Shown here one piece after another: positions 18,426-48,347 of a stretch of 48,347 bases of DNA. Where the stretch lies: positions 28,598-76,944 of the IMG/VR virus record IMGVR_UViG_3300030090_003678; one strand, 5' to 3'. Each line of letters opens with the position of its first letter. Position 1 is the stretch's first letter. A model generated the notes under the pieces. The model was not told where the DNA came from, did no database searches, and saw only the letters and a list, made by a program, of their open reading frames with translations. The translations under genes were made by a program, and so were the position numbers. Source of the DNA: a virus.

Positions 18426-18574
18426 TGGGAAATTATTGGGGTTGGATTAAAAACAACTACAAATGGTACGCTTGGAAATACGTAGAAGACAAAGTTAAAG
18501 TCAAGCTTGGACCATTTTATACGATAGAAGAAGCACAAGAAGCGGCAGAAGAATATGAAAATTCTAATAAGTAG
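18425..18574 (+). CDS. 49-aa Trp-rich hypothetical protein
   Basis: This short reading frame begins MGNYWGWIKNNYKWYAWKYV and continues with a basic strand, a LGPFYTIEEAQEA turn and helix, then NSNK. It has four Trp in 17 residues and a G-P-F-x-T-x-E-E-A pattern common in small phage proteins that form a strand-helix unit. It is coupled at both ends: its ATG overlaps the previous stop (TAATG), and the next gene starts 20 nt before its stop. These junctions are the same types used all along the arm, which supports a real gene. Function unknown. Confidence 0.6.
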   Translation: MGNYWGWIKNNYKWYAWKYVEDKVKVKLGPFYTIEEAQEAAEEYENSNK

Positions 18575-22277: not shown

Positions 22278-22296
22278 ACAGAATTATTTTTTTTCT

Positions 22297-22310
22297 TGTT
22301 ATAATAATAG
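22297..22310 (+). promoter_or_regulatory. Extended -10 promoter before the second sugar operon
   Basis: TG-T-TATAAT (22297-22305) fits an extended -10 element, continuing as TATAATAATAG. No good -35 lies 16-18 bases upstream (the spacer region is a T run), as expected for extended -10 promoters. It is the largest gap in the left arm (22278-22345) and sits 40 bases before the next ATG. The 10-mer TATAATAATA also stands before the 236-aa gene on the other strand. Confidence 0.55.
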
Positions 22311-22345
22311 CAGGATGGTCAAGATAATACACACGGAGTTAAAAT

Positions 22346-23281: not shown

Positions 23282-24231
23282 TAGATTTAGAAGGCAAAAA
23301 AGTTCTAGTCACTGGTGGCGAAGGATTTTTAGGTACTGCAATTTGCAAAAAGCTAAGAGAAAAAGGCGCAGAGCCAATAATCTTAAGGCACAGCCAAGTC
23401 AATATGCATGACTTACAAGCAATCATACTGTTTATGACATCTGTTAAGCCAGACTATTGCATACATGCTGCTGGCTACAATGGCGGTATTGAATTCAATA
23501 GGATGTATCCTGCCGACATTCTTTACTCTAATACAGTCATGGGACTGAACATTCATCACGCCTGCGAATATTTAAATGTCAAAAAGATTGTCTCAATTAT
23601 GACATCTTGCGCCTATCCTGATACAGGCATGGAAGTGTTGGAAGAAGACACTTTCTGGGATGGACAACCAAACAAAACTATTAGAGCGCATGGTATAGCA
23701 AAAAGAACCCTACAGACAGCAGCAGAGGCGTATAATGACCAATACGAATTAGATGCGGTTACTGTTTGTGTTACAAACCTATATGGCCCAAATGATACTT
23801 TTAATCTAGTGAGAACAAAAGTTGTTGGGGCTTTAATAAGAAAGTTTGCAGAAGCTGTCATTGAAGAAGATGATACAGTAGAATGTTGGGGTACAGGCGC
23901 TCCAATGAGAGAATTTATGTATGTTGATGATGCAGCAGAAGCTATCATCCAAGCATTGATTGTTTACGATGACAACACAAAACCTCTAAATATTGGAACG
24001 GGAAAAGATATCAGCATTAAACAACTTGTTGAATATATTAGGTCTGCTGTTAAATATGAAGGTGAAGTATTTTGGAACACAGAAAAACCAGATGGCCAGA
24101 TGAAAAAACTTCTAGACACATCAAGAATGAAAGAGATTATTGACATCAATCCTATTTCAGTAGAAGAAGGTATAAAAAAGACCGTCGATTGGTATGTAAT
24201 AAATAAAGAAAAAGCTGATGCAAAAAAATAA
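23278..24231 (+). CDS. GDP-L-fucose synthase-like epimerase/reductase with Tyr-to-His change
   Basis: This 317-aa extended SDR is most like GDP-fucose synthase (WcaG/Fcl). It has VLVTGGEGFLGTAI, KPDYCIHAAGYNGGI, a Ser/Cys box MTSCAYPD, TNLYGPNDTFN and REFMYVDDAAEAI. In that family the catalytic dyad is Y-x-x-x-K before the long helix. Here the corresponding place reads HGIAKR, with H138 where Tyr is expected and K142 kept. It may have a shifted chemistry, be inactive, or use His as the acid. It is coupled to the upstream epimerase by ATGA, so the pair could make one deoxy- or epimerised sugar. Confidence 0.8.
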   Translation: MIDLEGKKVLVTGGEGFLGTAICKKLREKGAEPIILRHSQVNMHDLQAIILFMTSVKPDYCIHAAGYNGGIEFNRMYPADILYSNTVMGLNIHHACEYLNVKKIVSIMTSCAYPDTGMEVLEEDTFWDGQPNKTIRAHGIAKRTLQTAAEAYNDQYELDAVTVCVTNLYGPNDTFNLVRTKVVGALIRKFAEAVIEEDDTVECWGTGAPMREFMYVDDAAEAIIQALIVYDDNTKPLNIGTGKDISIKQLVEYIRSAVKYEGEVFWNTEKPDGQMKKLLDTSRMKEIIDINPISVEEGIKKTVDWYVINKEKADAKK

Positions 24232-28764: not shown

Positions 28765-31700
28765 CTATTCGTGTATGTTTACATGCATTATTGAATCGCC
28801 ATGTGTTCCGTACCTAAGTTCCATATCTTCAAAGTGTGGTCCTAGATAATGGGTCCAGCATTTTTCTTCGCATTGATGAAAGTTTAATGGACCTCTCTCA
28901 TTGCAACATATCTGATCGAAACCTAAATAGAAATCCATATTTACTGGTTTATTGCTATTGCCTTGTCTGCAATTATTTACCGGAGGTGGATATCCAATAA
29001 TAATATCAAATGCTCCTCCATGCCTACTCCAAACTGCTCTCCAGTGAGGATCTGCATATTCATTAAACTTTTCATTTTCTGCTTGTGGAGCATAAATAAC
29101 TCCTTTAAAGTTTCTAGGAGCTAAACCTATTCCGACTTCGTGACCCATTAACATAGCTTCTGGAGACGATAATTCTAAGAACTTTTCTTTTTGAGTTATC
29201 AAGTTTAATTTTCTATCGTCAGCTGAATTTGCTACAGGTTTTCCAAGATACTTCACAGTACCCTTTACAATCTTAGTACATTCAGCAGGAGTCCTTACGT
29301 TCAAGGTGTTTCCACTACTATCAATACAAACAAATTCATTTATTATTTGTGTATCAATGGATGCTCCAAGAGTTAATCCTGCTTCTCCACATTCTTTCTT
29401 TGTTTTTTGTATAACTGGCCCAATAAACACTCCTGTTGGGCCGCACTCAGATGCTGTAACGCTTTCGGTTACTTCATTGCCATCAACTAAGTATATACAT
29501 GTTCCAGCTTGGTCGTCACTAACATCTCTACATTCTTTGTATGGTCGGATTGATTCACATGAATCGCTCATATCACAAAGCCTAGCCATCTCCAAACTTT
29601 CCTGAGAGTCGTCAGGAACATAACTATCATCAGCAGGGAAATAAAATGGGAACTGTTGATCCAACGTATTCAAGTCAACACACGTATCAAACACACTTGA
29701 ATACGTAACATCTCTAACAGAACCGCATGTGTTTATCCACACGCCTTTTACCCAATCATAACCTCTTGATGTACAGGCAGTTTCGTTATCAATTTCGTAA
29801 AGGGTGCAGAAGTGTTGCTCGCAACCAGCTTTCGTGTCTACTTCTGATGGAGGATCAGTAACTTCACCATTTGTATCTTCCCATTTAGTACCTTGTGGGA
29901 ATTCACAACTTCCTAATCTGCTAGCTAGACCTCCTTCAGTTATCTTCTCTCCTTCTCCAAAGAATCCAGCATCTTTAGTAACCGTCTTTAATTTTTGTGA
30001 TGGGTCATATTCCCAATCGCTTGCTTTTCCAAATCTAGGAGCTGGTTTATTTGCTTCAAGATTGCTTCTTAATTGAGATGCGTCATGAACAACCAACTCT
30101 AATTCATCATGAAGCGCAAACCTCGTCGCTGCTGTTACTGGCTCCCACCAATGCCAGCCATTTTCTTTGCAGTCTTCCTTGTTGTCATATTTTGCATTTT
30201 GACAACCACGCTTTCTTACAACATAACTACCATCAGCTGGACCTCTAGGACATCTCATTTCCCTCTGTTCGTTGCCTGAGTCATCTTCATATTTTATTTC
30301 TACGCACTCAAAACATTGTCCTAGAGGGTTAGTTTTACTAGGAGGTTGACATGGATCTTGCAAATAGAACCCATTAATTTGACAGCCGACAGGACATCCT
30401 TCTACAAAGAAATCTTTTGCGTCTCCAGTTTTTTGTCCACCACTAATTTCTAATGGTTTTAGATTTAATGGATCTTTGTATTTATACCCATCTTTTTCAT
30501 CGTTTCGTCTTCCAATTACCCAATCGCCACCAAATATTCTTTCGCATAAGAATTTGTCTCCATCCATTCCTAATGGACTTTCTGGGTCTCCAGTGTCTTC
30601 ATATAATTGAACCCATTCTCCATTAGTTTGAAATTCAGCTAATCCTCCGGGAGTTACAGGGTTTGGTATTCCTCCAAATCCAACTCTATCACATTCATTT
30701 TTATCAGTAATAGGATCGCCATTAGAGTCTGTTATTCCTGTGTTTGTTGCTACATCTACACAAGCTCCTTCAGAACACTCATTTATGTCCATTCTGCTTA
30801 CGTTCATGCCATAACGGTCATCAACACAGTATCCCATTCTTGTACCTTTGCAGGTGGCGGGATAAACTACGCTACCACTAATAACAACTTTTTCTGCATC
30901 AGCTAGGTCGTGGTCGTAGTGTGTAGCCACTTCTGTGTGCGAAAAATGTGGTATCCAGAGATGTCCATTTCCAACACATGTTGAGTTATTTTTGTATGTA
31001 TTATTTGTACAGAAGTAATCTTCATCTGAATAGATATTTTCAAATGCATTAATCATGACTGGCTCAACTGGCAGTATCTCTGGAATTGGAGTGGTCATTC
31101 CTCCACCAGTATCTACCTCTTTGTACCTAAACATTCTATTCAGATTATCAACGGTTGGTTTCGGACCAATTCTTCCCGGCTGTGTTATAGAACCAGTTGG
31201 ATCTGTCCTTAAACTTTCAACATTAGATGGTCCCATAGGAACACCCTTTGGCCACATTGACATGTGTCTGCTAAGAGAAGAATGTGTCTGGTGATCGACC
31301 GGCCATGGATTCAAACCATATGGTTGGGGAAGCTCTAAATTCTGCTTCATGTTCATATAGTCAAAAGTAGTAGCCGATACTGGATTGCCGTTTTGGGTTC
31401 TTGTCCTATCGTAAATTCTAAGATGTCTATTTTTTCTAGGATTTTTTGTGATTAGCTTCGATACATCAGCAACCCTAATTTCCATATACTGACCGCTTCC
31501 ACGACCCGCATCTCCATCTTTGTCTGGAATATTATCCCCTCTTGGGATATCTGTATAGAGTATAGTTCCTCCAGCAGGTAAATATGGATTCCTTGATTTA
31601 TTACTTCTGGAATAACTGCCAAATGTATCCGTTTCTGCTTGTTGTAATTCTGCTAATCCAATACCAATCGGTGTGCCTTTTTCATAAGCGCAATGTCTGC

Positions 31701-34700
31701 CCCCAAACGTAGGTGGATAAGCAGGTATAACTAAAGTAGCCTCTCCTGTTTCTGGATCAACATCTTTAACATACCGAACGGTAAATTGCTCTGCTGGCTT
31801 GTTTGGAATTGGGTCAAATCCATACGATTGACATCTGTGACTTATATCGCCACCAGTAGAACAAGCAACACCGCCGCTCCACAAAGGAGCGCGAATTGGT
31901 GGACTTCCTCCGCCTGTTCTGAAGGGGTAGTCTATTCCAGTGTATGTACAACATTCCGTATCAACACATGCCCCACTTGGGCCACAATCATTTTTGGATA
32001 TACATCTTCCAGCAAAAGTATATCTTCTTTCTAACGCACTAGGCTTTCCTGTTTTTCTCCAAGAGTCTCCGGTAATCAACCGTTTTGGTAAACATCCAAT
32101 TAACCCTCCAGTATCGCAAGGTGGCACTCCCGTTACGCCATCAGTTACGTTGTCAACCCTTAGACTCTCAGACCCCAAAAAAGATGTAAATGTACAATTT
32201 GTTATTTCTGCCCAAATTTCTAAACCATTTTGTCTATAGTTGTCTCCTCCATTAGGTCCAAACCCACCATCAACTATATCACCACTGTTATAAGCCGCCA
32301 TTGAAGGTATAGAATTTCCACAGCCCATTACTAATCTAATAAAGTGACCATCTTGTGGCAGACTAGGAGGTCTTGCATTTCTGAATACTAGGTCTGAACT
32401 TAGGCCATCTACTCGCACTCCGCCATTCATTCCTCCATATTGAGGCATATCACAAGCGTTGCAGTCGGCATTTATTGCTACTAACTCATCTCCTGCTTTG
32501 AATGACGTATAGGGGCTAAAGTCTAAATTTGGTCCAGTTGGTTGGCAAGCTGAAGGCCATTTGAATCTATGCAAGCCTAAATCACATTGATGTGTACCAA
32601 CTGTGTTCATTAAAGTCCACTCAGATCTCCAAACAACGCCATCATATTCCATAGGGACATCTAAAGACTGTAATCCCGGACAAGTTTCATCTACAGGTTC
32701 ATGGCTATTTGTATGGTCAACACAAGTTTCATCTGCCTCTGTTTGTATATGGAGACCATAACATCCTGTATATGCATCATTATCATATCCTTCATCTCCA
32801 TTTCCATTAACGTGACAAGTACCATCTCCAATGTCTTCAACGACTTCGGGTTCATATTTCATCTCAACAAAATTTGGATAACAAGAGCAAGGATCAAATG
32901 CCCAAATATATGCAGACTCAGGTGCATCTGAAACTTTAGTACATGTCGCTGTCAATGCTGAAGTGATCTGAACTACTTCCCCTACATTTTGGTCACCACA
33001 ATTTTTCTCTTCTATCCCTGAACATGATTTTGCTTCTTTACATGGCAAATATGGATGTGAACAATTTCCTATAATATCGTTGTTATTGTCAGACACTAAC
33101 GCTTCACAATAGGCATCTGCACAACAATCAGTTTCTTTGCCGTCTTTGTCTACTCCTATGTATTGTACTTGTGTGTTTCCTGTTTGACTAACAGTCTTCG
33201 TTTTGGATCGAGAGGTATAAACTGATGAACATTTTCTACAATTAGTTCCCCCACCCATGGTAGGTCTTTTTCTTAAAAACATATTACACTCAGAAACACC
33301 ACCAGAGTGCGTTAAAGGAGTAAACGTTTCATCTTTACCATCACAACCCTTTTTCCTCCATTTGAGGGTTTTAATCCGTCCACCATCTTCTGTGCATGTT
33401 CCAAATGTAATGTCAACATTATTTGGGTCTGCTATATGTCTTCTGAACTCATCTTCGCATTCTGGCAAATCTCTAAGATCGCAAGGATGAAAAGTATCAG
33501 AACAACAATAACCTTCATTTTTTAATGCTTTTGCCGCATTGAAACTTTGGCTATCATCAGCAGTAGGAGCTTCACATTCATCCATGCCGCAGCCAATATA
33601 GTCTAATATCTCGCTAGATTGGCCAGTAACAGTTGCAACTAACTTGTTTGGCATAAAGTGGTCACAGCAAACAGGACATATTCCTTTTTGTTCTATTTGA
33701 ACATAGTAATCATTTGCTCTTTCTTCCCATTTATATCCCGGACCGCCGAAACCAAATCTATATAGACTATCTATTTCATCATCTTCGTAATGTCCAATAT
33801 ACCCACCTTCAACACCAATATCTTCGTGATGTCCCCAATAATCAAACTCTCCGGTGAATGGACATGTTTTATAAACACCAACACTCGGTTTTCCTTTACC
33901 TGAAGTAAGTTCACTACCAAGATCCAGTATGCCTAAATCGCCATACCAAGCTTGCGACCAACATGTCTTGAAAGGATCGTCATTATTTAAATCAACACAA
34001 TCTGCATATCTTCCTTCAATAAACGTAGCGCCTTTAAACTCAAATCCACTTTCTTCACAATCGGATTTGTTGTTTATTCCACCAACTACATCGCCATCGT
34101 AGTCATAACATTTTCCTTTACTTTCACATGCCTCTTTTTGTTCTTCTGTAGTTCCAGAATGAAGATCTTTGTCATTTAAAAGTTTTGCGTCAGCATCTTG
34201 ACATCTATTAACATAAAGCTGGTTTTTGTGGTCTACATCAACGCTAGGGTCGTACATGGTATATACTTGCGCGAGTGCATCACAATCTTCTTTTTTCATA
34301 AATGCATTGGCGTTTGACTCGTATCCTAGCACTACAGTACAAGTACCATATAAAGCACAATTTATTTCTGCTTCATTATCTGCGGTCTTTTCGTCATCTT
34401 CAAAAGTGTCATAGTTTCTCCAAGAAGTCGTCCATCTCTCAGCAAAGTCCGTACAGTCTGCTTTACTTTTTGGATTTCCGTTTTCGTCTAATGCACCAGT
34501 TTTATCTATGGTGTTAAAACATATACCAAGAGCATCACAATCTGCTTCCGCACAAGCCTTTCCTCCATCAGATTGCGTTTTATAACAAGTATGTTCTTCG
34601 TCTATTGGAGCGCCTGAAGCTTCACTATTTGTTATGGTATCGCCTGTTGGAATATGAGTAGACTTTCCATTATTTTGGAATGAGAGCTTGCCGGTATATG

Positions 34701-37700
34701 TATCTAAACAACGAAATTGTGCAGGTTCTTGAGATGGTATTCCCTTATTTTCTGCCAGCTTTTTAGTGATCCAATTGACTTGTTCAGGCGCTTCTGCTGC
34801 ACCCATACCAAGTCGATAGTTCATAATACAACCTTCTTCAACTTCCTCTACACATTCAGTTGTATCAATATTTGCTTTGTTTATTATCCTTCCATCTACT
34901 GGATACTTGTCGCATGTATATAAGTCGAATGTGTCTAATGTTACATTTTTAATAACAAAGAAGTCAGCTGGTGGAGGAATTTCACCATTAATTATTTCAC
35001 CGGAACAAGCGTAGTATTTACTATCGCAACTGAGTTCCCATGTACCTCCGCCGCCTTCCCATACTCCACCACATCCCGGAGGGCCATCTGCATCATCTTT
35101 TACACAACCACACTCTTCTCCCGGAGCTTTATCTTGATCAACAGTAAATCCTGAAGGACAGTTCCCATCATCATCCTGCATCTTGCATATATCGGCATCA
35201 GCTTCGCAATCAGTCTTTCTGTCACATACTGTTCCATCTTCTCTTTTCTTTGAACATTTTCCATACTCACACTCTAACTTACTTCCTGCATCAGTTGATG
35301 CGTCCCATTTATAAACAGGTCCAAGACAGTCCTTTTTCTCTAGATCAACTTCTGAGTCGTCAGACAGTCTAATACATTTGCCTTGAGAATCGTCTAGGCA
35401 AGCAGACGTATACGGACATATAGAATCTGGCCATACTAAGTTTTCACAATTTGGTCCGTCGCACGGGCTGTAAAGTTTATCTTCCCATTGCATCTCTTGC
35501 CAATCCTTCTGGTACATAACATTGGCAGCAAAATTGCCCATGACATTGTAGGTATGTACCAAGTCTCCATCTTTTAGCAAATGGTTCCTTGAAGTAATTT
35601 TGATTGGTTTTTCGTTGCTGGCATATTGGATTCGTTTGTGTTGCTTGATTCCTAAGCAGTGGTCATTGACATAGCTAGCCATTTCTCCCTTTGGGAATAG
35701 ACCAGTATCGTGCCAGTAACTCATTGAGTTGCCGATATCGTTTCCTTCTGATCCAAGAATTCTTCTTGAATATCCTCCTCCTACTTTGTCACTAAAACCT
35801 TTCTTTATACTACTTGTATCAACAAGTCCACTTGTTGAAGGTCCAGAAGGTCTGGCTTTAATGATTCCTTCCAGCTCTCTTAGCGGATAGCTTGAATCAG
35901 AACCTCCAACGCTAGCACCAGTCCAAGTATTATCCCCATCTCTACCGTTACAAGCTTCTTCTGTCTCATAATCTTGGATTAATGTACCGTCTTCTAGCAG
36001 ACATTGACCTAGCTTTTTCCCTAATACGATATCTACGAAAGCTTCAGGTACTGGTTGAACTTGAGGACATTCTTGGTTTTCTGCAAGAGCAATGCCTGCT
36101 GGAGAACATCCGTCATTCCAATTTCCTTCAGCCCCTCCTTCATCCATAGGCTTTACGCACTCTGCTTCGGTTTTTGCCTCTTCCCATATGGGAGTAGCTT
36201 GTTTTTCTACAACATCTTTGAAGTTTACTAGCTTTCTGCGATCACATCCTTCAAACCATTCACAACAAATGTTGAAGTCTCCTCCTGAAGCTGCGCAATC
36301 TTCTGGCGTAGCGTGTTCAAAACTTCCATCAGCTGCAACACAAGAGCCTGTTTTTCCACAACTTGCTTTAGTTTGCTCTTCACATTCAGGGCAAGAAAGG
36401 TTATTCGTCCAGCCATCGAATGGAACCCAACCAACCCACATAGCACCATTACCATAGCCGCAATCACCTCTTCTCAAGAAACCCACATGATCATCAACAT
36501 ATTTTTTAGCTTTTGTGGCTACTTCATTACAAAAGCCATCATATTTTTTTACTGCGATAGGACCCGGACCTGTAGTCATTTCATCCCATGCCATGAAATC
36601 ATAATACATGAAATAATCTGGACCATAATTCCAGAACCAAGTACCACCACCAGCCATATGCCCTAATACATAAGCAGTACATGCTTGCCAATATTTATGA
36701 TGTGCAGCAGCTTGATCAGGGCCTTTAGCTCTATTTTGTTTTTCTTCCGTCGCTTTGAATGGTTGAGGTTGTATGTTGAACCCATAGAATGCATCAGCTC
36801 CTTTGGCATTCATCAACTCGCCAAAGTATTCTCCTTTGTTACTATTGTAGTAATGATACGCTTGACATTGATCCTTACCACCATCCGCAATACCATCATA
36901 GTTTGCATCAGGATAGGCGCACCAATGCTGATGTTGTATGCCTTCTATAGCATCTCCCGGAAAATATCCTATTGGGCCTTTCATCGCAAGCGGAGGAGCA
37001 GATCCACCAGCGCCTTTTTGAAAAAGCTCATTTACTGGGTTGCCCATTTGGTCTCCCATTTTAGGGTCCCACAAAGGCTGAGATTCTGGCCAACCAGAAC
37101 GAAGCTGAGATTCTTTTCCGAGAGTTAGATTAAAGTTAGAACAATTCATAAACTGATCTACAGGCAAAAAGAGCATCACCTCTTCTCCACATGTAGTATC
37201 AAAATAATTGTCTTGTTGTCCCTTTATATCGTATGGGTCTGGTCTAGGAACACCTTTTTCTAAGCAAGCACCCCAAAAGTTACAGGGACGTATTGTAAGA
37301 GTCCAATAGCTTTCACCATCTAAATGGAATAGAACTCTATCATTTTGGTTTCCTACTGATGTGCAAGTACCTTCTGCGCCAGTTTGCGGAGCGTTGCTTC
37401 CAGTAATAGTAGAAGGCGAAAGAATCACCTCTGAATAAGGAGTTATACAAACAGTATTTTTTCTTGTGTTTGCTGCTCCACCAGATATTTGCGGAGTGTG
37501 AAAAGGATGATCTTCATCTAATAAAGTTTGTCCACAACAAGACTGGCGTTCATATTCCCAATCAACAAAATCGTAAGGAATGAAAACATTTGGATGCTTC
37601 CAAATCCTTTCGTCGATTTCAAGACATTCTTCTTCTGTAGCAACATCTCCTTCCCAAACATCGCCAAACGCACCACTATAACAACCAGCGTATACTTCTT

Positions 37701-39039
37701 CCCCAGAATAAAGAACACAATTTTCTTGAGTTTCATAATGCCAATCATGAGTGTGGTGAAATCTAACTTCACAATCATATTGATTTAATGCGGGAAACTT
37801 TGTAGGAGTCCCATTGCTTGTTGTTGGTCTCTTAAGACATGCTGGTTCTATGAGCTGATCTCTAACTGTAGGCTCACCATCTTTAGGAGAATAACAAAGA
37901 CCTCTTAAGGTACATTCTTCTTTATCATCAAGAAGCCAAGTTGCACCAGAACTTTCACAAGTAGATTCATCTTTATCAGGGTTAGTACAAAAGGCTTCAA
38001 CTTCAGTAGCATCAAATGGATGTCTACACCAAGGCTCTTTCTTTAAAGGTACAGCCCCATCTTCAAAGCAAGCGCTTTCTTTATTTGCTCCAGATCCATG
38101 GACTGCATTGTAAGAGCTATGAGCATAATACCCTTCAGGAGTAACGAATATTCTACGTTCTCTTGCTTTTATATTTATTAGTGCGTCAGCTTTATTTTCA
38201 GAGAAGTGTGTTTTTTGTAGGTTTGTCCCTTTTAGGTCTACTAATCTTTGTCCAGCTCTGTCTTCTACATTGTTATTTGTGACATTTGGATCATTCTCAC
38301 TCCAAAGACCATTTATATCTATACAGTCGTCTTCTGTAGTTATCCCATAATTAGGGACTCCATTTACATCCCAGCAAATAGGTCTTTCTCCATCTCTGAC
38401 GGATGAATTCAGCATGTCTGTTCCGCCACCGGGAAGCATTACGCCATAGACTTCTGGTATCATCCAAGCATCAGCACCTCTTCTAGGCCAGTTATCTCCT
38501 TGTAGCGCTTTGTCGTAATCGAAATCATCTCTTACTTGAAATCCATCTCCTACTTGTTTATCAGAATCAAGTGTCACATATTTATTGTTTGCGTAATGGC
38601 ACTCAGAAGGTTTGCCATTAGGAAGAGTAGTTACCTTACATGGATCACAAGCATAACTTAATGTATCAGTCGCTGTTTGACTACAACATCTGCTACCTCT
38701 CCAAGCGCCATTAGAATATTTAAGATGGTAGGTTTCTCCTGCTCCACCTTCTATTCCTGCACGAGCTTGATATCTTCCATCAGGAGTTCTAATAATAGTA
38801 ACAGCTATTTCTGGAGGTAGCTGACATTTTGCTCCAGCTAGGTTGTCGCAATAAGTGTCTATACAGCCACAGCCCTCAGTGCAAAAACGACCGCCTCTCC
38901 TATCTTTCAAAGATAGAGGGTCGTCCTGAGCTGTATCATCAGAAGCGTCTGGCCACCAAGATTTCTTGCCAGTTCTTTGATTTCTTAGGTTTGGATAATA
39001 GGGATTATAGGAGGAATCCCAAGGATCACCAATTGCCAT
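28765..39039 (-). CDS. Giant Cys-rich virion protein (3424 aa)
   Basis: One uninterrupted frame of 10.3 kb. By hand count it has about 165 cysteines (near 5%), mostly in small C...C-x3-4-G-x-x-W or CC / C-x2-C groups, interspersed with Trp- and Tyr-rich beta segments. The N-terminus is MAIGDPWDSSYNPYYPNL; no signal peptide or membrane helix is seen. Module examples start at C222, C351, C1222, C2677 and C2946. A stretch near 2540 (HLRIYDRTRTQNG) matches the 236-aa protein. Likely an extracellular tail or fibre component stabilised by disulfides or metal; no enzymatic motif is visible. It is coupled to the upstream 604-aa gene by TAATG. Confidence 0.8.
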   Translation of the reverse strand: MAIGDPWDSSYNPYYPNLRNQRTGKKSWWPDASDDTAQDDPLSLKDRRGGRFCTEGCGCIDTYCDNLAGAKCQLPPEIAVTIIRTPDGRYQARAGIEGGAGETYHLKYSNGAWRGSRCCSQTATDTLSYACDPCKVTTLPNGKPSECHYANNKYVTLDSDKQVGDGFQVRDDFDYDKALQGDNWPRRGADAWMIPEVYGVMLPGGGTDMLNSSVRDGERPICWDVNGVPNYGITTEDDCIDINGLWSENDPNVTNNNVEDRAGQRLVDLKGTNLQKTHFSENKADALINIKARERRIFVTPEGYYAHSSYNAVHGSGANKESACFEDGAVPLKKEPWCRHPFDATEVEAFCTNPDKDESTCESSGATWLLDDKEECTLRGLCYSPKDGEPTVRDQLIEPACLKRPTTSNGTPTKFPALNQYDCEVRFHHTHDWHYETQENCVLYSGEEVYAGCYSGAFGDVWEGDVATEEECLEIDERIWKHPNVFIPYDFVDWEYERQSCCGQTLLDEDHPFHTPQISGGAANTRKNTVCITPYSEVILSPSTITGSNAPQTGAEGTCTSVGNQNDRVLFHLDGESYWTLTIRPCNFWGACLEKGVPRPDPYDIKGQQDNYFDTTCGEEVMLFLPVDQFMNCSNFNLTLGKESQLRSGWPESQPLWDPKMGDQMGNPVNELFQKGAGGSAPPLAMKGPIGYFPGDAIEGIQHQHWCAYPDANYDGIADGGKDQCQAYHYYNSNKGEYFGELMNAKGADAFYGFNIQPQPFKATEEKQNRAKGPDQAAAHHKYWQACTAYVLGHMAGGGTWFWNYGPDYFMYYDFMAWDEMTTGPGPIAVKKYDGFCNEVATKAKKYVDDHVGFLRRGDCGYGNGAMWVGWVPFDGWTNNLSCPECEEQTKASCGKTGSCVAADGSFEHATPEDCAASGGDFNICCEWFEGCDRRKLVNFKDVVEKQATPIWEEAKTEAECVKPMDEGGAEGNWNDGCSPAGIALAENQECPQVQPVPEAFVDIVLGKKLGQCLLEDGTLIQDYETEEACNGRDGDNTWTGASVGGSDSSYPLRELEGIIKARPSGPSTSGLVDTSSIKKGFSDKVGGGYSRRILGSEGNDIGNSMSYWHDTGLFPKGEMASYVNDHCLGIKQHKRIQYASNEKPIKITSRNHLLKDGDLVHTYNVMGNFAANVMYQKDWQEMQWEDKLYSPCDGPNCENLVWPDSICPYTSACLDDSQGKCIRLSDDSEVDLEKKDCLGPVYKWDASTDAGSKLECEYGKCSKKREDGTVCDRKTDCEADADICKMQDDDGNCPSGFTVDQDKAPGEECGCVKDDADGPPGCGGVWEGGGGTWELSCDSKYYACSGEIINGEIPPPADFFVIKNVTLDTFDLYTCDKYPVDGRIINKANIDTTECVEEVEEGCIMNYRLGMGAAEAPEQVNWITKKLAENKGIPSQEPAQFRCLDTYTGKLSFQNNGKSTHIPTGDTITNSEASGAPIDEEHTCYKTQSDGGKACAEADCDALGICFNTIDKTGALDENGNPKSKADCTDFAERWTTSWRNYDTFEDDEKTADNEAEINCALYGTCTVVLGYESNANAFMKKEDCDALAQVYTMYDPSVDVDHKNQLYVNRCQDADAKLLNDKDLHSGTTEEQKEACESKGKCYDYDGDVVGGINNKSDCEESGFEFKGATFIEGRYADCVDLNNDDPFKTCWSQAWYGDLGILDLGSELTSGKGKPSVGVYKTCPFTGEFDYWGHHEDIGVEGGYIGHYEDDEIDSLYRFGFGGPGYKWEERANDYYVQIEQKGICPVCCDHFMPNKLVATVTGQSSEILDYIGCGMDECEAPTADDSQSFNAAKALKNEGYCCSDTFHPCDLRDLPECEDEFRRHIADPNNVDITFGTCTEDGGRIKTLKWRKKGCDGKDETFTPLTHSGGVSECNMFLRKRPTMGGGTNCRKCSSVYTSRSKTKTVSQTGNTQVQYIGVDKDGKETDCCADAYCEALVSDNNNDIIGNCSHPYLPCKEAKSCSGIEEKNCGDQNVGEVVQITSALTATCTKVSDAPESAYIWAFDPCSCYPNFVEMKYEPEVVEDIGDGTCHVNGNGDEGYDNDAYTGCYGLHIQTEADETCVDHTNSHEPVDETCPGLQSLDVPMEYDGVVWRSEWTLMNTVGTHQCDLGLHRFKWPSACQPTGPNLDFSPYTSFKAGDELVAINADCNACDMPQYGGMNGGVRVDGLSSDLVFRNARPPSLPQDGHFIRLVMGCGNSIPSMAAYNSGDIVDGGFGPNGGDNYRQNGLEIWAEITNCTFTSFLGSESLRVDNVTDGVTGVPPCDTGGLIGCLPKRLITGDSWRKTGKPSALERRYTFAGRCISKNDCGPSGACVDTECCTYTGIDYPFRTGGGSPPIRAPLWSGGVACSTGGDISHRCQSYGFDPIPNKPAEQFTVRYVKDVDPETGEATLVIPAYPPTFGGRHCAYEKGTPIGIGLAELQQAETDTFGSYSRSNKSRNPYLPAGGTILYTDIPRGDNIPDKDGDAGRGSGQYMEIRVADVSKLITKNPRKNRHLRIYDRTRTQNGNPVSATTFDYMNMKQNLELPQPYGLNPWPVDHQTHSSLSRHMSMWPKGVPMGPSNVESLRTDPTGSITQPGRIGPKPTVDNLNRMFRYKEVDTGGGMTTPIPEILPVEPVMINAFENIYSDEDYFCTNNTYKNNSTCVGNGHLWIPHFSHTEVATHYDHDLADAEKVVISGSVVYPATCKGTRMGYCVDDRYGMNVSRMDINECSEGACVDVATNTGITDSNGDPITDKNECDRVGFGGIPNPVTPGGLAEFQTNGEWVQLYEDTGDPESPLGMDGDKFLCERIFGGDWVIGRRNDEKDGYKYKDPLNLKPLEISGGQKTGDAKDFFVEGCPVGCQINGFYLQDPCQPPSKTNPLGQCFECVEIKYEDDSGNEQREMRCPRGPADGSYVVRKRGCQNAKYDNKEDCKENGWHWWEPVTAATRFALHDELELVVHDASQLRSNLEANKPAPRFGKASDWEYDPSQKLKTVTKDAGFFGEGEKITEGGLASRLGSCEFPQGTKWEDTNGEVTDPPSEVDTKAGCEQHFCTLYEIDNETACTSRGYDWVKGVWINTCGSVRDVTYSSVFDTCVDLNTLDQQFPFYFPADDSYVPDDSQESLEMARLCDMSDSCESIRPYKECRDVSDDQAGTCIYLVDGNEVTESVTASECGPTGVFIGPVIQKTKKECGEAGLTLGASIDTQIINEFVCIDSSGNTLNVRTPAECTKIVKGTVKYLGKPVANSADDRKLNLITQKEKFLELSSPEAMLMGHEVGIGLAPRNFKGVIYAPQAENEKFNEYADPHWRAVWSRHGGAFDIIIGYPPPVNNCRQGNSNKPVNMDFYLGFDQICCNERGPLNFHQCEEKCWTHYLGPHFEDMELRYGTHGDSIMHVNIHE
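35304..35382 (-). repeat. Cys-module copy A (in the 3424-aa gene)
   Basis: This 79-base segment encodes residues C1222 to W1245 (KCIRLSDDS ... CLGPVYKW). It aligns without gaps to 44203-44281 in the 1959-aa gene. Of the 26 residues GKC...YKW, 18 are identical, and long base runs such as CCAAGACA and CTGAGTC are shared. Confidence 0.75.
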
Positions 39040-40853: not shown

Positions 40854-40864
40854 TTTTCTACCTA

Positions 40865-43800
40865 TTAATCTTTCTGGTATTGACCTATTCCTCTTTTGAC
40901 TCTTTCCATTTGCTCTTCTGCTCTAGAAAGTCTTTGCATTATGTCTGACTGTGACTTTCTTATTCTGTCTTCATAAAGCTTTCCTAAGTCTCCGAACTTT
41001 CTTTGGGTAGAGAAGCTATAGCTAGTTGTCAATCCGTTACTTCCAACTCTCAAACTCACATCAGTAATATAAGGACCTTTAATTTCCTCTCCACTACTGT
41101 CGAAATAAGTCAGTTGTGTTCCAAATGCATAAGCTGGTATTCCAACTAGTTCAATAGAACCTGTTTCTATAACTCTATTTTCGCTTTGGCCAATAACTGT
41201 TTCTATTCTAGACATTGCCACATCTCCCATTTGAGTTTCTCCACCAAATGCGGCTGGGTGTAATCCATCGTCAGTAGAAAATTCAGTTTTTCCATATGCT
41301 TCAAGTCCAGCAGCCCAAGGACCCCATCTATAGTGTTTGCTTTGTTGTGGTATAGCAGCGTGCCAAGGTTTATATGCAGCAGCAACAAAAGAGCCTTTTC
41401 CCATATCAGGGCCTAAGTTAGGCGCATACTTGCTTCTAGCTTGCATAGCTATCAGTTGTTGTGCTGTAACTCCTTGAGGTAATAAACCATTCAACCAAGC
41501 CCCTAATAAGAAGTTTGAGTTTCCTCCTTTAGTAAGAGGAAGACACATTTCATTTTTATTACCTCCGCAAGAATTCATTAATGGATGAGCCATATCAATA
41601 TCTGGATAAAATGCTCGATTTGCTAGAGTCACTAGTGCATAAGGTTTATATGCAGCAAATTCATTGGTCTGCTCACTACCTGTGTTATCTATCTCGTTTT
41701 CTCTGATATATACAGGACGCGTTTTTAATTCTGTTTGTGTACCATCAATTTCACTGCCTATTTTTAAATACTCTTCGGATGCGGCATGGTCGATGCTACT
41801 TCCATCTACCTTAGCGTCATCTCCACATCTATAACGGAAATATTGCTCTTCATGATGAATCTCCCAGTCTGGTCTTTCTTTTAGCCAGTGTGTTTTTGCA
41901 TCAACTTCAGCAGCCACAAATACCTTTTTTCCCCAATTATCATCAGGGCCAACTTTGCTTACAGGTTCTACATGCATGGTTTCTGCATCAAAATCTCTGA
42001 AGTCTAATATCTTAGAGTCTTGTGTTGCTCGCCTATAATCTTTTTCTGGGAATATAACAAAGGACTTTAGATTTCCTTCTTCCGTCCAGAAATTCATATT
42101 CTGAGGATATCCAGTATTGGCATTTTTAGAGTCTGGTGTACCAAAGTTAAACTCAATATCTCCACCGGGCCAAGCTCCATTAGTTGCTATTTCCCATCTG
42201 TTAATTTCCTGTATTGGTTCGATCCATTTTTCTCTAGCAATTATTTCGCATGTGTATTTGTCTGGACTCACTCCATCAGTACAGCGACCAATGCCTTGTT
42301 TAGCAAACCATTCACTTAATAAACCATGGACACCCCAATCGAATCCAGCATCTTCACATTGAGTTTGATCCTCGTATTTGGGATTTGTGCAATGTACTGT
42401 AGAAGGTGGATTAAAAGGTAAAGGCACTAGATACTTCTTGCCATAGAAGTTGTCTGCAACATCTTTTATCTTTTTATAAACCATCTCAATTTCCATTGAC
42501 GTTGCTTGGAACAATGTCAAAGAAGTTGTTCTTGGCTTATCTCCACAAACAAAACCAGAAATGCTTTGCGCCTCTTCAGTGTCGGCATTGCTTTCGTCAG
42601 TAATACCAGTAGAAGCCATCGGTGGAGGACTTGAGTTACCCCAAGCAACTAATACTTTTGCTGCTTCAAGAGTTGTTTGACTTTTACCTCCATGAATTAC
42701 TACTTCATCTTTAGCTGGACATAAGTCACCCCAAGCATTTGATGGCTCAGGTGTTTTTTCATAAAACCAACAAGGCATGTATGGCTGTAGGGTTTTTACA
42801 AAAATCTTCCAAGAATCTATACTCTGAGCTGCATGTCTGAGTTCAGTCACAGTTGCATAATAAAACTCATCATATCTTTTTGCAGGGTCATTTATAGAAG
42901 ATTTAGGGCCTCCTTTATATGGAGTATTCCCTAAATCAATAGGTATAGTTGACGTTCTACATACAAGAGGAAGGCCAATACCAGTATTCAAATCGACTGG
43001 CTTGTAATGCACTTCGTTTTGGCTACCGCCATTATCTTGATCGTAACAGTCTCTTTCTGTTTCTATGTCCTCATTGTTTGGTGGATCTTTTGGGTCTTGT
43101 TTTTCTCCATCACTATCACGAACTTGCCTACACACACCCTTTAGCCTAATTCTAGGTTGTGTATATCCGGGAGCTGGATTGTCTTTTGACTCAATTACCC
43201 TACCAGTAAAGTCATCAGTAAACTGAGGGCCATAATCAAAAGTGCTAACAAGCGTCCACTCTGCTTTTCCGGGATATTTTGTTTTGCAATCTCTTGGTGT
43301 AGCAGCATCAGTCCAATCGCCTTTATGAAATAAAACCTTTCCTTTATCGTTTTCTATGTCTTCAGTGGCTTCACACCTACTATCAAATGGATTTCTATAT
43401 GATACCGCTTTACATCCGGGACTATATAAACTTCCTCCACTTTCAAATTGGTTCATATCTGCTGGATCAAATCCAGAAGGAAGAGCATCTCCATTAGCAT
43501 CTATTTCAAAGGAAGATCTAGCTTCAGGAGTTGCAAGAAGATTTCCACTGTCTGTACAGTCTGCTGGACTTCCAACGAACTTAATAAACCCACTTTCAGT
43601 GTTAACTTCCCATTTAGGATCATTGAATGTAGCAGCTTCTCCAGCTTTCTTTTCAAACCCTCCTTCTTTGAAGTCTTTCGCATAGTAGGCTACTATAGCA
43701 CTTCCTTGAGGGTCTCCGTTTCCGTCTTCTGCAAAACAAGCGTGTTGACAAGCCCATGCATTTTCACCAACATTATTTTCAGGACCAACAATATCTTCAT

Positions 43801-46744
43801 GCATCTTAGAAGATATATCTACATTGTTCTTATCTCTACACGCACCCCAATTGATACACCAAGGTCGCCATTTATATTGTTTCAGATCCCCAGCTTTCTT
43901 TACGGCGCAGTCGGAGTCTGGTGGATTTACTTCTGGTCTAGGATCACATTCGCAAATAAACTTTAAGTTTTCATAATCTTCATTAGCTTGTCCTGTAGCT
44001 AATTCCTCACAGATTCCTAAAGACGGATTAAAAAACTCAATCCCACTAAAAATACCTTCAGTAGGGTGAAAGTCTCTATAAGGATCATCATCATTGAAAA
44101 ATCCCTTGATTGGATTTCCTCTAACGCTTAGATCAACAATGTCGTTATAAACATTGTCTGCTGCAATTGACTGAGGATCTGCTGGAGTCCAACTCCCTAC
44201 AACCCATTTGTAAGTAGGACCAAGACAACTGTCTTTTTCTACGTCTACTACTGAGTCATCGGCAGTCTTGATACATTTTCCATTTTCTTCTTTTTCACAT
44301 TCCTCTTGTGTCTTAAGACCTCCCTCAGAACATGAACCTTGTGCAACAGCACCACCTTTAACAAGCTCTATGGTTTCATATCCCCAGCATGGATATAGAT
44401 CTAGATAGCCTGAGTCTGTGGAGTGTTTTTTTGTCCAAATTCCAGATGCGTCAAGGCATAGTTTCTCAGTATCAGGATACTCCCAATTACCTCCTTTATC
44501 TGCGCATTCTGTAGCATTAGTTGGTCCAGCTACAACTTCTGGATCTTTTTTTGGAGGGCTAATTTTTAAACATGCTTTTACATCACAATCACCTGCATTA
44601 AGCTGATGCTTTGAGTTGAGTCTATTTAACTGATAGGGATTAAATCCACCATCTTGTTTGAAATCTTGTGGCCAATACCAAGGCAAATAATTATCATTGC
44701 TTACAGGAGGCAAATTTCTTTCAAAGTCTGGGTAGTCTAGCGTCTCTTTGTCCGAGTATATTCCTTGTTTTCCATAAGGATTCCATCTCAACTTATTACT
44801 GTCTGAAGGAAACTCATCTTTAGGGAATTCTTGATTTATAAGAGTAACGCCATCATCTTCAACGTGTGGCAAGAACTCTGTTAAAATCGAGTCTACTCCT
44901 TCTGTTGGTGCTGGATCTTCATCAGTTACATCTTCAGTTGTCCAGACATGATTTGCTTGAGCTTCGCAATCAGCTTTATTTGTATAGGAAGGAGCCTTAT
45001 CTCCATTACCATCTACACAATAAGATTCAGTGTTTGTTTTATCAAAATACTTTCCAGTAGTTTGATTGTAGAAAGTATCTTTTCTTACATTGACATCTCC
45101 TAAAGGTGTAACACCAATGACTCTTGTTCTAGGCGCACCAAGGACCATCTTGCCTTCAATAGGATCTGTAAATTCATAACCTAAGTTGGCACTTACTAAA
45201 GTTGGGTTATTTTGATTATCTACAAAAGGCCCTTCTGGAGGTGTCTTTTGTGACAGATCAACTGCATCCCCAATAGAACCACGAGTGATTGTTGTCGTTC
45301 TTGGGATAGGAACAACTTTTATGATTCCAGAATAATTTTTAACATCCGGCCATTCTTCAGGTTCAATAAACCCATCTTTGATTAGATTTTTGGTTATAGG
45401 GCTTAATGTTACATAAAAATCAGCTCCTACAACCGCGCAAGCTTCTTCTATTAAAGATAAAAGGCTTGCTGTATCTCCAGAGATTCTCCAATCATTTGGT
45501 ATCAAACCTTCTTCGTCTCCTGAAGACGAAGATGAACTAGAACTTGCTATATCTGAAGACTTAGAACTGAACTTAAAAAAATCAGTTAGGTCAACTAGAT
45601 ATCTATGTATATGCCAGCTTTCTGGATTGCCATCTTCATCTAATTTTACTGCGCCTGCTTCGTCTTTTATAGATGCGGAGTTTAATATGCTTTGAGATGG
45701 ATTTACATTTCTAGTGTCTCTGCTGTAGTGTAAGGGTCCGCCAAATGGTTCAAATTCTTCAATGTAATTCGTGTCTTTGCCACTTAACATATTTGCAAGT
45801 GCGCCCAAAATACCAAAAGCATGTTTTCTTTTTGGTGCTTGCTTATCTTCGTCAAGACTTGGGTTGTAATCTCCAAACTTGTTAATGAATTGTTTATTTG
45901 GATTATTCCAAATCATTCCGGCTTCTGTAATATCAGATTTGTTAAACCCGTGATATTCGTAGTACCCAAACACATTTATTATGTTGTAATACCCATTCCA
46001 TCCTTTTTCGTATTCTCTTCCTGAATCTTCGATTCTATACGCATCAGCAGGAGATGTTCTTGCAGCAAATTTGTTAAGTACAACGATTGTATTTTCGAGT
46101 ATTGATCTTGGGTCTGCAATTTCTACCGTGTAGGTTTCTCCAGCAGTTGAAAACTTTTTATCGTACTTTGTTAAAATTCCCGGAAAAGAGAACACAGTGT
46201 TACAAGTAAGAGCGCCATCTTTTAAGACTCCATCATCATCATAATCTCTTTTTACGCAGTCTTGTATTAAGTCTCTTCCGCTGTAGTAATTAAAAAAGAC
46301 AGGAGATCCCGGATCAGGAATAAAAGGAATGTCTCCATGAGTGGAGTAGAGTTTTCCCATTCCTTTATCTGGATCTGATGGGTTGTCTTCGTTCTCTAGA
46401 TTGTGCAATCTTAAAAGATCAATAGGAAACGCATTAGGATCATTAGGGTGATAACCTTCAGAAACGGCATCTCTAGTACCAGAGGGAGTTAAGTAAGTTT
46501 CAAAATTAACTTCGTCTCTTACTAAATTAACGCTAAGACTAGAACTGTTACTACCCAAGCCTAAATTTGCAGAAAAATCCATAATCGACAAACCTAAGAA
46601 AGTTTGCTGAAAGATTTCTGGATTATTAACATAGTCAGTTATTGCTGAGGCGTATTTGTCCCAAGACCCACCATTAGCTGTACAATCAGCCTCATTTTTA
46701 TACTGAGGTTTGCTACATTTATTTACATCTTTATTAGGAGCCAT
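40865..46744 (-). CDS. Tail/baseplate-hub-like virion protein (1959 aa) with Cys modules
   Basis: The first residues carry a Cys module (C10 to W28), followed by a region reading VFSFPGILTKYDKKFSTAGETYTVEIADPRSILENT, which resembles strand-rich hub or tail-tip proteins. An eight-Ser run sits near residue 410. Further Cys modules start at C576, C824, C1452 and C1488, set between Trp-rich segments. The end has IELVGIPAYAFGTQLTYF, LRVGSNGLTTSYSFSTQRKFG and a coiled-coil-like tail EDRIRKSQSDIMQRLSRAEEQMERVK that may trimerise. It overlaps the upstream structural gene by TAATG. Hub assignment is inference. Confidence 0.68.
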   Translation of the reverse strand: MAPNKDVNKCSKPQYKNEADCTANGGSWDKYASAITDYVNNPEIFQQTFLGLSIMDFSANLGLGSNSSSLSVNLVRDEVNFETYLTPSGTRDAVSEGYHPNDPNAFPIDLLRLHNLENEDNPSDPDKGMGKLYSTHGDIPFIPDPGSPVFFNYYSGRDLIQDCVKRDYDDDGVLKDGALTCNTVFSFPGILTKYDKKFSTAGETYTVEIADPRSILENTIVVLNKFAARTSPADAYRIEDSGREYEKGWNGYYNIINVFGYYEYHGFNKSDITEAGMIWNNPNKQFINKFGDYNPSLDEDKQAPKRKHAFGILGALANMLSGKDTNYIEEFEPFGGPLHYSRDTRNVNPSQSILNSASIKDEAGAVKLDEDGNPESWHIHRYLVDLTDFFKFSSKSSDIASSSSSSSSGDEEGLIPNDWRISGDTASLLSLIEEACAVVGADFYVTLSPITKNLIKDGFIEPEEWPDVKNYSGIIKVVPIPRTTTITRGSIGDAVDLSQKTPPEGPFVDNQNNPTLVSANLGYEFTDPIEGKMVLGAPRTRVIGVTPLGDVNVRKDTFYNQTTGKYFDKTNTESYCVDGNGDKAPSYTNKADCEAQANHVWTTEDVTDEDPAPTEGVDSILTEFLPHVEDDGVTLINQEFPKDEFPSDSNKLRWNPYGKQGIYSDKETLDYPDFERNLPPVSNDNYLPWYWPQDFKQDGGFNPYQLNRLNSKHQLNAGDCDVKACLKISPPKKDPEVVAGPTNATECADKGGNWEYPDTEKLCLDASGIWTKKHSTDSGYLDLYPCWGYETIELVKGGAVAQGSCSEGGLKTQEECEKEENGKCIKTADDSVVDVEKDSCLGPTYKWVVGSWTPADPQSIAADNVYNDIVDLSVRGNPIKGFFNDDDPYRDFHPTEGIFSGIEFFNPSLGICEELATGQANEDYENLKFICECDPRPEVNPPDSDCAVKKAGDLKQYKWRPWCINWGACRDKNNVDISSKMHEDIVGPENNVGENAWACQHACFAEDGNGDPQGSAIVAYYAKDFKEGGFEKKAGEAATFNDPKWEVNTESGFIKFVGSPADCTDSGNLLATPEARSSFEIDANGDALPSGFDPADMNQFESGGSLYSPGCKAVSYRNPFDSRCEATEDIENDKGKVLFHKGDWTDAATPRDCKTKYPGKAEWTLVSTFDYGPQFTDDFTGRVIESKDNPAPGYTQPRIRLKGVCRQVRDSDGEKQDPKDPPNNEDIETERDCYDQDNGGSQNEVHYKPVDLNTGIGLPLVCRTSTIPIDLGNTPYKGGPKSSINDPAKRYDEFYYATVTELRHAAQSIDSWKIFVKTLQPYMPCWFYEKTPEPSNAWGDLCPAKDEVVIHGGKSQTTLEAAKVLVAWGNSSPPPMASTGITDESNADTEEAQSISGFVCGDKPRTTSLTLFQATSMEIEMVYKKIKDVADNFYGKKYLVPLPFNPPSTVHCTNPKYEDQTQCEDAGFDWGVHGLLSEWFAKQGIGRCTDGVSPDKYTCEIIAREKWIEPIQEINRWEIATNGAWPGGDIEFNFGTPDSKNANTGYPQNMNFWTEEGNLKSFVIFPEKDYRRATQDSKILDFRDFDAETMHVEPVSKVGPDDNWGKKVFVAAEVDAKTHWLKERPDWEIHHEEQYFRYRCGDDAKVDGSSIDHAASEEYLKIGSEIDGTQTELKTRPVYIRENEIDNTGSEQTNEFAAYKPYALVTLANRAFYPDIDMAHPLMNSCGGNKNEMCLPLTKGGNSNFLLGAWLNGLLPQGVTAQQLIAMQARSKYAPNLGPDMGKGSFVAAAYKPWHAAIPQQSKHYRWGPWAAGLEAYGKTEFSTDDGLHPAAFGGETQMGDVAMSRIETVIGQSENRVIETGSIELVGIPAYAFGTQLTYFDSSGEEIKGPYITDVSLRVGSNGLTTSYSFSTQRKFGDLGKLYEDRIRKSQSDIMQRLSRAEEQMERVKRGIGQYQKD
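44203..44281 (-). repeat. Cys-module copy B (in the 1959-aa gene)
   Basis: This 79-base partner of 35304-35382 encodes C824 to W847 (KCIKTADDS ... CLGPTYKW). The same length, the same frame and a clear protein match point to duplication between two neighbouring structural genes about 8.9 kb apart. Confidence 0.75.
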
Positions 46745-48347
46745 TACATTTCTTGTCCCGAATAAGGTTGGTCTTTCTTATCGTCTTGATCTGGATTAAC
46801 TACGCCATTGACTTTATCTACATAATCATCAGTAGGAAATGCCCACGGGTCATTAATTTCATAAATCCAACTTAAATTATATGACCAAGTACCAGTAACT
46901 GGATTCCAACTTTCACTAGGAGGATTTAAAAATCTTTTTCTTACCCTCTTAGGAGGAGTATTTCCAGTAAGAGTGTATTTACTATGGTCTATAGTTGTTA
47001 AATAGCTTGCAGGATCAAAAGAATCAATCAGCTTCTTAATAGCATTTGCTTGGATTAACCTAGTGTCTTTTTTAAGTAATCCACCAAGTGGATTGCCGGT
47101 CGTAGTAGAAATAATGTCATTTCCCGGTTTAGCAAGAATAAGCTCATGAGTAAAATCATCATTACCAAGAGCAACTGCTATGTCAGCAAAGTTAGGGTTT
47201 TCTATCCACGATGCTGCCACTCCAAATTCATCCACAGTTGCATTACAAGTAGCTTTGTCTTTTGGTGCTGCCAAGTATTGATTATTACTATCAACACATA
47301 TTTCATAATGTCCAGTATCAAATGTTGCGCTTATGCTTAGGTCTCTTTGCCATTGTGTTTGTGTATTTATTCCTTGTAGTACAGGACCTAACCTTCTCCC
47401 TAATACAACATGGGAAGCAACTACTTGTCCCGGATAAGTGTCGTTTACTGACCAGTCTTCTGACTTGCAATAAGGAATCCAATGATACTCAGCAACTCTG
47501 CCTTCGTAAGATAAGTTGAAAGTTATCGTTCCATTTGCCGGTTGGCTTGTTACGCTCTTATTAGCTAATGTAGGAGATATTGTATAAGCGGCATATTCTG
47601 GAAGCTCCTTAACTATCATCGCTGCTGAACGATGCATAAATGGCATTATTTTGCTGTAATGACTTAACGCTCTTCCGTATTTAGTATTTGAATTAGCTTG
47701 GTCTCTGTCGTAATTTTCTTTTACATTTAAAACATCGTCAGGATCTCTGTCTTGATTATCTTTATCACCCACGCCAGCATCATCTGCATTATCGACAAGC
47801 CCTTCAATTGATCCGTTTATACTAACGGTAACTTTGCCTTCACTATCTTCAGAAACTTGTACATCTAATGTTTCAGTAGCTTCGATTTCTCCATCGGCAG
47901 GATCAATATAAGGAGCTAATATCCAAGTTTCGACAACGCTAAATTGTCCTGATCTAATATCTACATTTTGTATTCTTTTGTAGTTATAAGCTTTATAGTT
48001 ATCATAAGCACCGACAGCATTATTTCCGGGAACAGGAAGATTCATACCAAAGAGATGCACATCATCATCATCTGCGGCAAGAGCTACAAGATTGTTATGT
48101 ATTCCTCCCGTGTACTCAGTGTCGTCAGCTCCTCCAGCGTTTGCGCTAACTTGGTTATTAAATCCGTCATAACCAAACAAGAACCTGTTACCATACTTGA
48201 TAATGTCGTAAACAAATCCCCTAGCTTGCTGCCAAGCCTTGCCTCCATTTTTATAATTCGTGCTGTATAGATCAGCTTTATATCCTCCAACAGAAGTTGA
48301 ACTATTAAATTCACTTTTTCCTGTAGCGCTAATATTTCTTGTTAGCA
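46744..48347 (-). CDS. Virion structural protein, 5' end outside the window
   Basis: The frame stays open to the right edge; the codon at 48178-48180 is an ordinary TTG, so a start there is not needed. At least 534 codons are visible. The sequence near the edge includes SVGGYKADLYSTNYKNGGKA. Then come beta-rich parts such as VTVSINGSIEGLVDN, SHVVLGRRLGPVLQGINTQ and WQRDLSISATFD. A Cys module follows (ICVDSNNQYLAAP, then CNATV ... ASWIEN). The end has RKRFLNPPSESWNPVTGTW and SYNLSWIYEINDP, which look like the last strands of a tail-type domain. It is coupled to the 1959-aa gene by TAATG. Confidence 0.75.
   Translation of the reverse strand, partial: LTRNISATGKSEFNSSTSVGGYKADLYSTNYKNGGKAWQQARGFVYDIIKYGNRFLFGYDGFNNQVSANAGGADDTEYTGGIHNNLVALAADDDDVHLFGMNLPVPGNNAVGAYDNYKAYNYKRIQNVDIRSGQFSVVETWILAPYIDPADGEIEATETLDVQVSEDSEGKVTVSINGSIEGLVDNADDAGVGDKDNQDRDPDDVLNVKENYDRDQANSNTKYGRALSHYSKIMPFMHRSAAMIVKELPEYAAYTISPTLANKSVTSQPANGTITFNLSYEGRVAEYHWIPYCKSEDWSVNDTYPGQVVASHVVLGRRLGPVLQGINTQTQWQRDLSISATFDTGHYEICVDSNNQYLAAPKDKATCNATVDEFGVAASWIENPNFADIAVALGNDDFTHELILAKPGNDIISTTTGNPLGGLLKKDTRLIQANAIKKLIDSFDPASYLTTIDHSKYTLTGNTPPKRVRKRFLNPPSESWNPVTGTWSYNLSWIYEINDPWAFPTDDYVDKVNGVVNPDQDDKKDQPYSGQEM

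Follow-up and report, generated by a model that had tools for sequence, protein, structure and literature searches.

A small two-cysteine unit recurring in tail-tip proteins of a virus, and its occurrence in T4-like baseplate proteins

Introduction

Small inserts closed by a disulfide are a known kind of protein element, and phage tails offer several points of comparison for the one considered here. The T4 baseplate protein gp8 (1n7z, 9f4a; family phrog_977) bears, in a loop at residues 142-161, a single segment of the form C-x10-C-x3-G-G-x-W with helix-cap residues. Domain 3 of T4 gp10 is modelled as a whole domain of 122 residues (PF22670, Gp10_D3), and head-tail adaptors of the SU10 type form a further family (PF24175). 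In phage Milano, disulfides hold a Cys-rich tail structure; these bonds are reported to lie between subunits, and the gp8-like garland proteins to lack Cys (PMC10811340). The present work concerns a small unit with two cysteines that recurs in three proteins, P0001, P0002 and P0003, encoded in a stretch of 48,347 nucleotides (the window) corresponding to positions 28598-76944 of the 76,944-base virus record IMGVR_UViG_3300030090_003678.

The short units of the window and its kin contain the same C-x10-C-x3-GG-x-W segment that marks gp8, and P0001-P0003 are otherwise without sequence similarity to that protein. The material presented below is best explained if every unit is a copy of a single structural element, a cassette of some 19-30 residues. 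We think it probable that this is a single disulfide-closed strand-helix-strand cassette that stiffens surface loops of the tail tip. A preliminary description of this DNA, made from the sequence alone, had noted the unit in at least three virion proteins; it is not peculiar to this phage, occurring also in T4 gp8, in further proteins of baseplates and adaptors, and in bacteria.

The unit and its sequence signature

The unit opens with a first cysteine (C1), after which come a loop of no fixed length, an N-cap residue (S/T/D/N), a short helix that holds the second cysteine (C2), and then Gly, two further residues and Trp. Two length classes are seen: a short one in which C1 and C2 lie about 11 residues apart (CTNPKYEDQTQCEDAGFDW), and a long one that often has a D-x-[DNS]-G turn between the cysteines (CVDGNGDKAPSYTNKADCEAQANHVW). 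The spacing from cysteine to Trp peaks at +7, with 12 cases in the window and 64 in its relatives (the next highest value being 27). When units are picked by C-x(6-26)-C-x6-W spacing alone, the position four before C2 is S, T, D or N in 10 of the 12 units of the window and in 47 of 54 units of the relatives, which are mutually non-independent; the position four after C2 is Gly in 7/12 and 39/54, respectively. An N-cap residue together with a Gly C-cap marks a short helix, and the second half of the unit is therefore read as such a capped helix. Capping counts made on profile A3, which includes rows from gp8, were discarded, many of its rows having T, A and GG imposed by the DNA pattern; the invariant columns of its 42 units are C, C and W only. 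The two cysteines, the variable spacing between them and the Trp of the preliminary description all stand; the second half of the unit is better described as a capped helix.

The units named there in P0002 (C10-W28, C576-W601 and C1452-W1470), in P0001 (C222, C351, C1222, C2677 and C2946) and in the rightmost protein (C295-W325 of P0003) are all present. The strict pattern C-x(5-30)-C-x(3-4)-[GA]-x2-W occurs six times in P0001 against a mean of 0.56 in shuffled sequences (maximum 4 in 500 shuffles) and three times in P0002 against 0.08 (maximum 2); it has no match in P0003. A looser pattern remains at chance level in Cys-rich P0001 (16 against 10.06, shuffle maximum 19) and exceeds it in P0002 (7 against 1.74, shuffle maximum 6). 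A profile started from 19 hand-picked window seeds and iterated over window and relatives (domain E<0.05) retains 12 units in P0001, 6 in P0002 and 1 in P0003, a total of 19 that is partly circular, the window units being the seeds. The figure of roughly 25 given previously thus falls to 19 by profile, and is reached only by admitting weaker or chained candidates.

Gain, loss and copying among relatives

Seven contigs are related to the window, two of them near-identical (93-99%) and five with a P0004 60-70% identical; scans with alignments A4 and A6 yielded no additional relatives. In the relatives, the corresponding gene block comes after a gene for a 2722-residue, Cys-free protein that matches tail tape-measure families (E 1.8e-25). 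This gene order places the block in the distal tail or baseplate, at the tail tip, and supports the virion location proposed earlier.

Among relatives 30-50% identical (up to five aligned), entire units are present or absent between intact flanks. The window shares the unit C576-W601 of P0002 with L023 and L024, and the unit is wholly missing from L025 and L026, in which the flanks align; the C824 region is unit-free in L025, L026 and L042, and the C1452 unit occurs in all six sequences compared. In the P0003 family, L023 and L024 have two extra units, one of them between the conserved FP-x-x-DY and PYPGQE, where the window, L025 and L026 have none. Copy number therefore varies in the P0001, P0002 and P0003 families alike, a check that the preliminary description had set, and its picture of small inserts amid otherwise unrelated segments is borne out.

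Some units resemble one another far more than their surroundings do. C1222-W1245 of P0001 and C824-W847 of P0002 share 67% of their amino acids and 68% of their nucleotides, whereas their 20-residue flanks share 0-15% of amino acids. Two units of L036 lying 3100 residues apart are 64% identical, with flanks at 5-10%. For two unit pairs, in L037 and L038, the likeness extends to the upstream flank (50%), and a larger piece was therefore copied there. Units thus also move between loops and genes of the lineage, and gains, losses and copying of the cassette have been frequent in its tail-tip proteins.

Occurrence in T4-like baseplates, adaptors and bacteria

Single-unit tblastn with four queries returned 1, 28, 0 and 2 phage records, so that sensitivity varies strongly by query. 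The 28 records, found with one relative's unit at E 0.5-4, are annotated as baseplate wedge in 26 cases and as hypothetical in two. Five of them were opened. Gene order and content identify four as gp8, each with the unit (4/4); the fifth is gp6-like and has gp25 as its neighbour (phrog_219). In Aeromonas phages gp10 also bears a unit. Profile A2, built from units of the window and its kin with no gp8 row, ranks T4 gp8 (1n7z, residues 142-161) first among 177,635 PDB sequences, at E 0.3; A3, with its gp8 rows, matches the same residues at E 0.007-0.01. Across 520 open reading frames (ORFs) of seven reference phage loci, A2 gives six matches of at least 8 bits, every one in gp8 or a gp6-like protein; the highest score among 20 shuffles is 7.2 bits. 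In the other direction, phrog_977 matches the P0003 homolog of L024 exactly at its unit, over 33 residues only (E 0.0027), and the adaptor of L046 at its unit (E 0.0043); P0001-P0003 show no match to phrog_977 at E<=0.1, and hence no similarity to gp8 as a whole protein. The whole genome of cyanophage S-PM2 gave no match in a profile search; its gp8 has the aligned loop, free of Cys.

Two further families touch the unit. PF22670 matches L051, L056 and L064, three unrelated proteins, across their units at E 0.004-0.006, below its cut-off of 27 bits (best 17.8 bits); the model describes a whole domain, and P0001-P0006 match it nowhere at E<=1. The SU10-type adaptor family emerged from DNA-pattern searches. 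The first pattern, C-T-[ND]-x2-Y-x5-C-x3-G-x2-W, found 12 stretches in viral contigs, none with a profile match above noise, and these were put down to chance. A short-class pattern found 14 viral contigs, all with open frames, and 12 bacterial contigs, 11 with open frames, against a chance expectation of about one and two (a rough estimate that takes equal base frequencies). One of the 14 is the relative G004 itself, and in nine the unit lies in a single family of head-tail adaptors (PF24175; the member tested matches at E 3.7e-12). Two SU10-type adaptors carry it as an exact insert, and all four homologs opened are without it, so that this family, though it hosts the unit, also dispenses with it.

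After removal of L060 (internal stop) and L065-L067 (ORFs of 52-139 residues), 8 of the 12 bacterial matches remain. The convincing carriers include multihaem cytochrome-like L057, L059 and L061, of which L057 and L061 have several units; the others are long proteins, some with PilY1-like, DUF11 or PKD parts. A3 at E<=1e-5 finds the unit in 1/198 and 1/200 genomes of two phyla, both known carriers, and it is therefore rare in cells. In L061, from the Acidobacteria, a multihaem-type protein (5679-8000) has three head-to-tail copies of the unit's first 16 residues, 73-83% identical in nucleotides, the last copy being complete.

As far as these searches reach, the unit has neither a name nor a model. 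No Pfam model (16 proteins; nothing at E<=1 for P0001-P0006) or NCBIfam model (10 proteins) reaches its cut-off on a unit, in accord with the preliminary description, which had not recognised a named domain. In the open-licence literature searched, no paper names the unit or its recurrence from T4 gp8 through this lineage to bacteria.

Predicted fold

The model of P0003, built with five sequences, has a mean predicted local distance difference test score (pLDDT) of 50.6, and its unit blocks reach 69-79. It places C295 in a strand (293-296), C312 in a helix (309-314) and W325 in a strand (324-327). A poorer model of P0002 (mean pLDDT 33.6) gives the same order around C33, C44 and W51, with a strand at 29-33, a helix at 41-46 and a strand at 51-55, the unit itself standing at a pLDDT of about 50. 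Thus strand-helix-strand appears in both modelled units examined, one of them at that low score, and on these models a strand-helix-strand insert is the best reading. By VIA-align, the best Z for the P0003 model is 4.4, and no identification follows.

Discussion

The proposed cassette would begin with a strand end bearing C1 and continue through a loop of free length to an N-capped short helix holding C2, a Gly cap and a strand starting at the Trp. Such a closed staple, its ends leaving as neighbouring strands, would fit a hairpin loop and fold on its own, and nearly every surface loop of a beta-rich protein could accept it with the host fold undisturbed; this would explain why the loop varies in length while the second half is fixed, why the cysteines are paired and why gain and loss come easily. 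Oxidised cysteines would suit an extracellular particle, and phage Milano offers a precedent for tail-locking disulfides (PMC10811340). At the tail tip, the unit would most likely act as a stapled, protease-resistant loop that stiffens the tip and adds contact surface, either between adjacent chains or towards the host cell.

Several points weigh against this reading. The unit, its spread, its insertion and loss, the joint retention of its cysteines and the tail location are observed; the disulfide, the fold and the stiffening role are matters of inference. Both models are low in mean pLDDT, and in the fold search with that of P0003 none of 520 PDB and 403 viral matches reached E<=0.001. No score taken singly ties the unit strongly to gp8 (E 0.3 in the PDB search, E 0.5-4 by tblastn), and most of the seven reference loci were picked on account of their unit tblastn matches. 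Just one Cys is retained in 27 of 238 aligned cells, and the 165 Cys of P0001 far exceed those that its units use.

The cysteines themselves admit more than one role. In the 238 cells, both are kept in 118, neither is kept though the residues are present in 29, and the segment is lacking in 64. We judge it improbable that the units are metal-binding knobs in which the two Cys and nearby Asp or Asn hold zinc or calcium, as in a zinc-knuckle- or EF-like loop. Many long units do have an Asp/Asn-rich loop between the cysteines, and C-x-D-x-[DNS]-G is slightly calcium-loop-like; the short class, T4 gp8 included, is without the D-x-[DNS]-G loop. A zinc knuckle or similar site has three or four conserved Cys/His ligands, and no such set is found across the 42 units of A3, whose only invariant columns are the two Cys and the Trp. 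Because the Cys are retained in pairs, with only two per unit and no conserved His, the disulfide is favoured over metal, and most likely it closes the insert. Crosslinks between adjacent tail-tip subunits, in place of bonds within the unit, have a precedent in the inter-subunit tail disulfides of Milano (PMC10811340) and would suit the very Cys-rich P0001, a Cys-rich tail being common to both phages; yet the two Cys of a unit are mostly retained or lost jointly, also in phages with a single unit, and we regard this alternative as unlikely.

The origin of the units can be argued in a similar manner. Palindromic elements that insert in genes in frame are found in Rickettsia, and a comparable mobile DNA element inserting in frame by chance would account for units in unrelated genes and for the L061 tandem copies, alike in nucleotides. 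GC content at third codon positions, however, tracks the host gene (r = 0.97; 20 units, 13 genes), and selection therefore acts on the protein, which is what has been retained, rather than on the DNA sequence; we give the mobile element very little credence. A lack of common origin, in which unrelated Cys-rich loops converged on a capped-helix staple and the likeness to gp8 is convergence, is a possibility, if a doubtful one, and is compatible with the single cassette proposed here. Only a handful of positions are fixed (C, S/T/D/N, C, G, W), and each gp8 link is weak alone; against this, some copies within the lineage match beyond the fixed positions, and bacterial and viral units follow a near-identical 19-mer plan, albeit one for which the DNA pattern had itself selected.

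Genes and features of the window

On the minus strand the genes run, in order of transcription, P0003, P0002, P0004, P0001, P0005 and P0006 (Table 1). Whole-protein tblastn against 50,697 phage records gave no match for P0002, P0003, P0004 or the C-terminal 2599 residues of P0001. Of the 3424 residues of P0001, 165 are Cys, and 75 alignment columns are Cys in all six homologs, many more than the units explain. In P0004 the number is odd, 13, and every one is kept in all six homologs; this protein has no match in phage records or PDB sequences. The plus strand holds replication and sugar-modification genes. At 5901-11014 (+), a PHP-type DnaE-like DNA polymerase is split over two ORFs (phrog_405 positions 42-615 and 625-1071), between which lie a DnaQ-like exonuclease and a methyltransferase-like ORF; inspection by eye saw no intein-like ends. 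At 11901-24231 (+) lies a series of ORFs for glycosyltransferases and nucleotide-sugar epimerases, of which three match phrog_540.

Table 1. Genes of the tail-tip block and their two-cysteine units, in window positions.
Feature	Position	Strand	Remarks
P0001, 3424-aa tail-tip protein	28765..39039	-	165 Cys; 12 profile-supported units
P0002, 1959-aa tail-tip protein	40865..46744	-	41 Cys; 6 profile-supported units
P0003, 478 aa	46744..48345	-	1 unit; N-terminus truncated at window end
P0004, 604 aa	39039..40853	-	13 Cys; no units; served for finding relatives
P0002 C10-W28	46661..46717	-	absent in 2/5 aligned relatives (L025, L026); N-terminus uncovered in a third
P0002 C576-W601	44942..45019	-	entire unit gone in L025 and L026, flanks intact
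P0002 C725-W754 and C747-W770, chained	44435..44572	-	
P0002 C824-W847	44204..44275	-	similar to P0001 C1222-W1245
P0002 C1452-W1470	42335..42391	-	two Cys and Trp invariant in 7 aligned sequences
P0002 C1488-W1507	42224..42283	-	absent in L042
P0003 C295-W325	47206..47298	-	both Cys invariant in 5 sequences; strand-helix-strand in model
P0001 C222-W246	38302..38376	-	
P0001 C351-W368	37936..37989	-	one, two or no units at the site in relatives
P0001 C900-F922	36274..36342	-	Phe replaces Trp
P0001 C1013-W1039	35923..36003	-	
P0001 C1222-W1245	35305..35376	-	mostly gapped in 5 distant relatives; L036 has a different unit beside the site
P0001 C1507-W1536	34432..34521	-	
P0001 C1644-F1668	34036..34110	-	Phe in window, Trp in relatives
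P0001 C2677-W2695	30955..31011	-	
P0001 C2946-W2964	30148..30204	-	
P0001 C3078-W3096	29752..29808	-	missing from distant relatives reaching that point
P0001 C3181-F3205	29425..29499	-	weaker unit
P0001 C3238-Y3264	29248..29328	-	weaker unit

Implications

Profile A3 makes the unit searchable. We entertain, tentatively, a broader view in which it is a minimal plug-in fold, common to phage baseplates and bacterial extracytoplasmic proteins, that enters surface loops of otherwise unlike proteins by in-frame capture and that in this lineage may have become a device for rapid remodelling of the tail tip, with units passing by copying from gene to gene and being reshuffled among loops when the phages change hosts. 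If the reading offered here is true, a building block unrecognised within the T4 baseplate structure would gain a name, a natural scaffold of about 19 residues would be seen to tolerate insertion into many unrelated loops, and phage tail-tip proteins would prove able to grow by small cassettes and not by whole domains.

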